Source: Thiohalomonas denitrificans (GTDB lineage Bacteria; Pseudomonadota; Gammaproteobacteria; Thiohalomonadales; Thiohalomonadaceae). From it: 64,000 nucleotides of DNA. Under the pieces are notes generated by a model, which was given only the letters and a program-made list of their open reading frames with translations, had not been told where the DNA came from and searched no databases. The translations under genes and the position numbers were made by a program. Positions within the stretch are counted from its first letter, which is position 1. The number at the start of each line of letters is the position of its first letter. The stretch lies in assembly GCA_020725115.1 (NCBI GenBank), contig DYFR01000016.1:21471-85470 (forward strand), in the 5' to 3' direction. Positions 34,048-35,342 of the stretch are shown in pieces.

Positions 34048-34158
34048 GGCCACGCCTCTCACAGGGTTACGGACGGATAAACACAGAGCGGGCGAATGTT
34101 ACCACCAGAGGATGGACTCGCGCCGCTCCCGGCCATCCATGGCCTCCACGGCATAAAC

Positions 34159-34187
34159 AAAAAAAAAGCCCAGGTGGCCCTGGGCTT
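34159..34187 (-). terminator. Intrinsic terminator (minus strand) of candidate sRNA
   Basis: Minus-strand AAGCCCAGG-gcca-CCTGGGCTTTTTTTTT: perfect 9-bp stem plus U tract. Confidence 0.9.
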
Positions 34188-34259
34188 GGAAAGAGGGGAT
34201 GACAAAACTTAAAACCACAGGAGGTCCCACCACACGCCTGTCATCCCCCGGAGGAGTCA
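34159..34259 (-). ncRNA. Candidate orphan small RNA (~100 nt)
   Basis: Minus-strand -35 TTGGTA (34292-34287), 16 nt, -10 TATCAT (34270-34265); GGGGATGACA...TGTCATCCCC perfect inverted repeat; two CTCC-rich motifs; intrinsic terminator; no convincing ORF. Confidence 0.6.
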
Positions 34260-34445
34260 TTACGATGATAGTTATTGCACACACCGTACCAACTTCGCCC
34301 AGGAGCAGACATCTGGCGTTAACATATTGCTTTACAATGAAAAACACATGCTGACCACGATCATTTCGGCAGGGCGCACTAGGCGCGGAACTGCCAGATT
34401 CGGCACCACACCCCTGACACACCGCCAAAAATGACGCACCAATAA

Positions 34446-35342
34446 CTATTTGAGACTGTTGCCGCCCTCTTCCCCACCGCCACCAGCCCGGACATGTACC
34501 GTCGGCAGGGGCAACCGCCACAACCAGCCGATACCACGCAGCAGCCCCCACAGGAACAGCAGCGGCAGCACGACCGTTTGCACCAGGAACACCACGATGA
34601 GGTTGATCACCTGCTCGCTCACATCCGTCGCCGCCCGTTCGTACTTGCGCAGATAGCTGCCGACATCCACCGCCGCCGCCGCCGACTGATAGGCGCGCCG
34701 TACCCGATCCACCAGCGATGGGTCATCCACCACCGGGATATCCTGCTCGGCCCCCTGGTTGATCTCCTGGATATTCGAGGTCACCTGCTCGATACGCGCC
34801 GAGGAACTGTCATAGCGTTCCTGCAGAAACGCGCCGTAGAACAATTCACCGGTCATGGCCAGCAGCGGCACGGCGAAGCGCAGCACCAGCAGCATGATGC
34901 CGAGGCGCAGCAGCCAGACCCGCATCTGCGGCGCCACCCGCGGCAGCCACAGCAATACCAGGGCGCCCAGCCACACCGCTGCCAGTGCCCAGGTAAAGGC
35001 GGGCACGGTAAACAGTTCCAGCAACAGCCGTTGCAGGCCCAGGGCGGTGGCGCTGGCCAGCATCACCCAGGAAAACTGCTCCACCAGATCGTTGACGGGG
35101 TCGAGCACCTGGCCCGGGGTGAAGTTGACGCCCACTCCGGCCGGCTCCACCGCGATCGACGTCCCCTGCGCCACCGAGATCACCGCGTTCAGGCCGCGCG
35201 CCACGGCGAAGGTCACCAGTGCCCGCTTGAAGCTGCGCTCGGTATACTCGAAGCCCGCGCGGTCGAGCACGCCGCTGGCGGCCAGCCCCAACAGGGCGAT
35301 GGCCATCAGCGTGAGCCCGAGTTTGACTGCTATTTTTTCCAT
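34446..35342 (-). CDS. Hypothetical multi-pass membrane protein
   Basis: MEKIAVKLGLTLMAIALLGLAASGVLDRAGFEYTERSFKRALVTFAVARGLNAVISVAQGTSIAVEPAGVGVNFTPGQVLDPVNDLVEQFSWVMLAS...; several hydrophobic segments. Confidence 0.8.
   Translation of the reverse strand: MEKIAVKLGLTLMAIALLGLAASGVLDRAGFEYTERSFKRALVTFAVARGLNAVISVAQGTSIAVEPAGVGVNFTPGQVLDPVNDLVEQFSWVMLASATALGLQRLLLELFTVPAFTWALAAVWLGALVLLWLPRVAPQMRVWLLRLGIMLLVLRFAVPLLAMTGELFYGAFLQERYDSSSARIEQVTSNIQEINQGAEQDIPVVDDPSLVDRVRRAYQSAAAAVDVGSYLRKYERAATDVSEQVINLIVVFLVQTVVLPLLFLWGLLRGIGWLWRLPLPTVHVRAGGGGEEGGNSLK

Follow-up and report, generated by a model that had tools for sequence, protein, structure and literature searches.

The window analyzed here is a stretch of 64,000 nucleotides from Thiohalomonas denitrificans, in which a predicted sRNA gene lies on the minus strand between recQ and an upstream gene (34446-35342, also minus strand) that codes for a 298-aa protein with hydrophobic stretches and no match to any Pfam or NCBIfam family. 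The original prediction had described here a closing stem, two CU-rich motifs, and a terminator of nine pairs followed by a run of U, and all of these were found on the minus strand where it had put them (Table 1). The start of the RNA was derived from the position of the −12 element, and the tract of 8 or 9 U downstream of the terminator stem reaches about 34158.

Table 1. Predicted features of the sRNA locus, in window coordinates
Feature	Position	Strand	Remarks
sRNA	34158..34265	−	Predicted start near 34265 to end of U tract, ~106 nt; conserved, with fold and terminator
5' anti-SD segment ACUCCUCC	34250..34257	−	Probability of being unpaired, 0.96; invariant in four genomes
Outer stem, 5' arm GGGGAUGACA	34239..34248	−	From folding
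Inner anti-SD segment ACCUCCU	34219..34225	−	UCCU in apical loop, ACC paired
Outer stem, 3' arm UGUCAUCCCC	34195..34204	−	From folding
Intrinsic terminator stem-loop	34166..34187	−	9 pairs, loop of 4; stem invariant in four genomes
Sigma54 −24/−12 promoter TGGTACGGTGTGTGCA	34276..34291	−	Invariant in four genomes; GG and GC at sigma54 spacing
Putative upstream activator site 1 CGTCATTTTTGGCG	34423..34436	−	144 nt upstream of −24 box; same position in four genomes
Putative upstream activator site 2 TGCCGAATCTGGCA	34392..34405	−	113 nt upstream of −24 box; same position in four genomes
Putative IHF-type core CAATATGTTA (CAANNNNTTR)	34320..34329	−	CAA and TT columns invariant in four genomes

In the predicted fold, the outer stem comprises 13 pairs, namely, those between GGGGAUGACA and UGUCAUCCCC, one G-U or A-U pair outside them, and two G-U pairs inside. 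It encloses an inner hairpin of seven pairs with the loop UCCUGU, and the terminator folds apart from both. The minimum free energy of the minus strand (−43 kcal/mol) compares with −32.7 ± 3.5 for shuffled sequences (z = −2.95), none of 200 of which folded as well, while the plus strand folds less well (z = −1.81). Both CU-rich motifs had been proposed as anti-Shine-Dalgarno (anti-SD) loops; this stands for the leader segment, predicted to be unpaired, and for the UCCUGU of the second motif, but the ACC preceding the latter is paired. With respect to coding potential, a long overlapping open reading frame (34099-34551) was discarded, as it is interrupted by stops in other genomes. A conserved, Trp-rich frame of 11 codons, MTGVWWDLLWF (34214-34244, minus strand; stop TAA or TAG), lies within the sRNA. 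It is probably not translated, having no SD sequence and its AUG inside a stem, and a reading as a Trp leader was ruled out on the same two grounds.

A homologue search in 56 relatives retrieved the sRNA from the genome of the window and from three others of the same genus, identical to the query at 93 to 98% of positions (the window's own copy at 100%). Among these four genomes, identity was 88 to 100% over window positions 34290 to 34166, compared to 16 to 72% in the upstream flank (34515 to 34291, 225 bases) and 44 to 72% in the downstream flank (34165 to 34066). Such a conserved island within diverged flanks indicates that selection keeps the promoter, the RNA, and the terminator rather than their surroundings. 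The original prediction had been made to hinge on whether relatives keep stem, promoter, and terminator, and all three are present in each of the four genomes with assembled DNA upstream of recQ; the remaining relative in the genus (G003) is uninformative, since its contig begins inside recQ. Neither a covariance model, run on the other ten genera of the family (all of the order that this search covered), nor the DNA upstream of recQ in those genera gave any further copy. By these searches, the sRNA is confined to one genus. Covariation was uninformative because the RNAs counted are nearly identical. A scan for the sigma54 element (see below) plus GACTCCTCC gave 25 stretches, most of them in unrelated groups. 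Judged from sequence, the existence of a conserved, non-coding gene for an anti-SD sRNA is well supported.

The sequence GTTGGTACGGTGTGTGCAAT is unchanged across the four genomes and fits the −24/−12 element of sigma54 promoters: it reads TGGTACG-N4-GTGCA, compared to a consensus of TGGCACG-N4-TTGCW, with the correct distance between GG and GC. In these genomes, the sigma54 pattern also retrieved the promoters of glnA, nifH, nifE-like, pilin, and flagellar genes (assigned by translation of the downstream frames), which are classical sigma54 targets. The pattern had 23, 29, and 29 matches versus 15, 9, and 16 for backward-pattern controls, so that a match by itself is no proof.

Farther upstream, each of the four genomes has two palindromes of the form TGYCA-N4-TGRCA, always exactly 144 and 113 nt ahead of the −24 box, with a spacing of 31 bp (about three helical turns) and within DNA that is nearly saturated with changes. 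When a matrix built from three genomes was scanned on the fourth, these two positions ranked first and second every time. An IHF-type core located between the palindromes and the promoter is also kept, although its neighborhood varies. This arrangement of palindromes, IHF core, and −24/−12 element is typical of sigma54 promoters that depend on an activator. Several sigma54-dependent sRNAs have dedicated activators, i.e., GlmY (GlrR), Qrr (LuxO), and CrcZ (CbrB). The locus described here resembles them in its −24/−12 promoter, with GG and GC at the fixed spacing, and in its distant activator sites (the two palindromes in four genomes), but it differs in the activator, in the site recognized, and in the RNA, which is unrelated.

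Searched in eight genomes at a spacing of 31, the palindrome pair was found at two sRNA loci, in G003 between the gene of a sigma54 activator and a divergent sigma54 promoter, and in two more places (G012 and G002) that look unrelated. A scan of 20 genomes at a spacing of 32 gave ten places, among them the activator locus or the adjoining operon in G010, G011, and G016. A matrix derived from the sRNA promoters only scored 12.7 to 19.6 bits immediately 5' of the activator orthologues in genera g2, g3, g5, g8, and g11, values that were equaled in none of 400 shuffles; within the genus of the window, scores ranged from 16.2 bits (0/400 shuffles) down to 11.3 bits (21/400, in G001). The match was absent upstream of the activator gene in G013 and was not shown by L133 and L134, relatives that are more distant. 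The activator, which is encoded in the genome of the window (G000:C32, L118 2362-3687), has the domains PAS_4, Sigma54_activat, and HTH_8 (PAS-AAA+-Fis). We consider it probable that this protein is the regulator of the sRNA. Its PAS stretch FCYEVSHH...C...CPL is shared by the genus and two relatives farther away; this might point to a redox or metal sensor. PrsR (TIGR02915) was considered as the identity of the activator and dropped, as no protein in 20 genomes reached the cut-off.

In some relatives, the activator gene adjoins cytochrome bd genes with a sigma54 promoter of their own. The divergent genes in G001, G003, G004, and G019 encode a short protein and a cydA-like frame, which in G001 matches cytochrome bd subunit I; in G005, cydA follows the activator and has a sigma54 element plus two sites of this kind at a comparable distance. 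No cydA was found in the genome of the window (91% complete) or in G002 (93% complete), and the cytochrome bd link is therefore a property of the relatives. Among the papers searched, we found none on an activator-cydAB pair and no study of this enhancer-binding protein, on which the sRNA now gives a handle. In genomes without a detected cydA, tiny frames (MPLDNFTLWG... at about 2290-2420 of L131 and MIIDNLTIFG... at about 2330-2460 of L130, both oriented with the activator on the minus strand) are located behind sigma54-like elements by the activator gene and could code for small membrane proteins.

The DNA divergent from the activator in G011, a genome in which no cydA was detected, contains a sigma54-like element (TGGCAAGCCACTTGCT) followed by ~230 nt without a long frame, which carry AGACUCCUCC and end in a terminator. 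This stretch is unrelated to the sRNA of the window's genus, yet it also carries GACUCCUCC, with its CU segment partly hidden by the fold. An anti-SD RNA under this activator might not be peculiar to one genus, which we take as a lead and not as proof. This G011 locus corresponds to about 2284 to 2540 of L129 (activator on the minus strand) and comprises the sigma54-like element, two activator-type sites, and the non-coding stretch with AGACTCCTCC and its terminator. A match to Rfam family RF02278 (see below) beside the activator in G016 (L131 2454-2506) was rejected, as it consists mostly of a terminator behind a small open reading frame and lacks the anti-SD stretch.

Among known RNAs, the Rfam scan of the window gave two gathering-level matches, neither of them at the sRNA, for which an Rfam search had been proposed and no family reached that level. 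The nearest family, RF02278 (Betaproteobacteria toxic sRNA, or double-hairpin RNAs), scored 25.7 bits against a gathering threshold of 50, mostly from the terminator. Its RNAs (ncS03, ncS05, ncS27, and ncS62 of Burkholderia cenocepacia) share with the sRNA a 5' CUCCUCC leader, a CCUCCU hairpin loop region, a terminator, and predicted SD binding; the counterparts here are ACUCCUCC and, in the first hairpin, ACCUCCU, the latter partly accessible. The family has two short hairpins only, whereas in the sRNA an additional outer stem of 10 bp encloses the inner hairpin, and its length is 106 nt versus about 57 to 92. The Burkholderia RNAs are expressed, overexpression of ncS27 slows growth, and binding to ribosome-binding sites has been predicted (PMC5688073). 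The term "orphan" used in the original prediction does not fit, given a probable dedicated regulator and an anatomical cousin in the same genome, an RF02278-like RNA of 45.8 bits (below the threshold of 50) at G000:C9:20888-20949 (L011). Both RNAs have UGACUCCUCC followed by a CCUCCU hairpin, although the cousin has a conserved TTGAC/TATATTAG promoter that is apparently sigma70-like. Of 39 relatives, 20 have such RF02278-like RNAs (L011 and L012 to L020) at 29 to 46 bits. Many of these carry a conserved TTGAC/TATATTAG promoter, and the family seems to extend past what the Rfam threshold admits. The NmsRs of Neisseria repress enzymes of the TCA cycle via CU-rich anti-SD segments covering the SD (PMC5362039). 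The sRNA has CU-rich anti-SD segments as well, but the NmsRs come as tandem siblings with a link to RelA, and a scan with one of the two segments of the sRNA gave no TCA target set.

With regard to targets, GGAGGAGU is found before the AUG, in at least three of the four genomes, in genes that include those for a pentapeptide-repeat secreted protein, a DsrE-like lipoprotein, an HbpS-like protein, and a multiheme cytochrome (names given by eye from the translations). For this segment, one of the two, conserved matches before an AUG belonged mostly to secreted or redox proteins, and no TCA set stood out; some other conserved matches are internal to coding sequences and due to chance. The best lead is the DsrE-like lipoprotein, with (U)GGAGGAGUCA at its SD. 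Duplex energies of the candidate targets were not clearly better than those of shuffles.

Conservation, fold, architecture of promoter and sites, and the motif match upstream of the activator gene come from computation; transcription, protein binding, Hfq use, targets, and signal are inferred. The reading that we favor, with a probability of roughly 0.68, is a stand-alone, sigma54-dependent sRNA that blocks SD sites when the PAS-AAA+-Fis activator fires. The enhancer-binding protein, whose gene lies at another locus of the genome, would bind the two palindromes, IHF would bend the DNA between them and the promoter, and the activator would open the −24/−12 complex, so that sigma54 RNA polymerase transcribes the ~106-nt gene. 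The RNA would fold into the outer stem with its inner hairpin, plus the terminator, and its two accessible CU-rich segments would pair with SD sequences, possibly with the use of Hfq, and block the translation of a set of mRNAs. This action is the most likely one because ACUCCUCC and UCCU are predicted to be accessible and RF02278 and the NmsRs provide precedents. Since the activator gene is beside cydAB with a sigma54 promoter in some relatives, the sRNA probably serves a respiratory or redox response as its translational arm.

The original prediction had the same kind of trans-acting anti-SD sRNA driven by sigma70. Its TTGGTA-N16-TATCAT does exist and matches 9 of 12 consensus positions, with 0.1 such matches expected in shuffles, but sigma70 control is improbable: the −10 hexamer differs among the four genomes (TATCAT, TAACAT, TAACAC, and TAACAT), in contrast to the unchanged sigma54 element, and an ordinary sigma70 promoter has no use for sites so far upstream. 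The sigma70 match overlays the invariant sigma54 element, a case in which promoter class is best judged by conservation. Sigma54 transcription could also enter recQ once the terminator is overcome, making the RNA a leader or attenuator. The shared strand, a terminator ~100 nt 5' of the recQ start in three genomes, and the conserved Trp-rich frame speak for it. We give this little credence, as the terminator is strong, with its 8 or 9 U, no alternative antiterminator pairing is evident in the predicted ensemble, G004 has ~100 additional bases ahead of recQ, and the short frame has neither an SD sequence nor a free AUG.

The unspecific target predictions could instead be explained by a sigma54-controlled RNA sponge or a protein-binding decoy that does not block SD sites. 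We regard this as just as improbable, since the unpaired CUCCUCC and the looped UCCU match the SD-blocking arrangement of the NmsRs (PMC5362039).

As an SD-blocking sRNA under sigma54 control, this RNA joins two known kinds, the anti-SD metabolic sRNAs and the sigma54-activated sRNAs, and adds one without an Rfam entry, whose proposed regulator and promoter logic are specific and can be tested. A broader and more doubtful proposal is a recurrent circuit in which the activator couples an alternative terminal oxidase (or, where this was lost, other genes) to an RNA mimicking the anti-SD sequence of the ribosome, has gained control of unrelated GACUCCUCC RNAs in at least two genera, and dampens translation as respiration switches.

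Of the two gathering-level Rfam matches elsewhere in the window, one is a cspA thermoregulator (RF01766; 36358-36737, plus strand), which precedes a cold-shock gene, and the other is a TPP riboswitch (RF00059; 44476-44566, minus strand).
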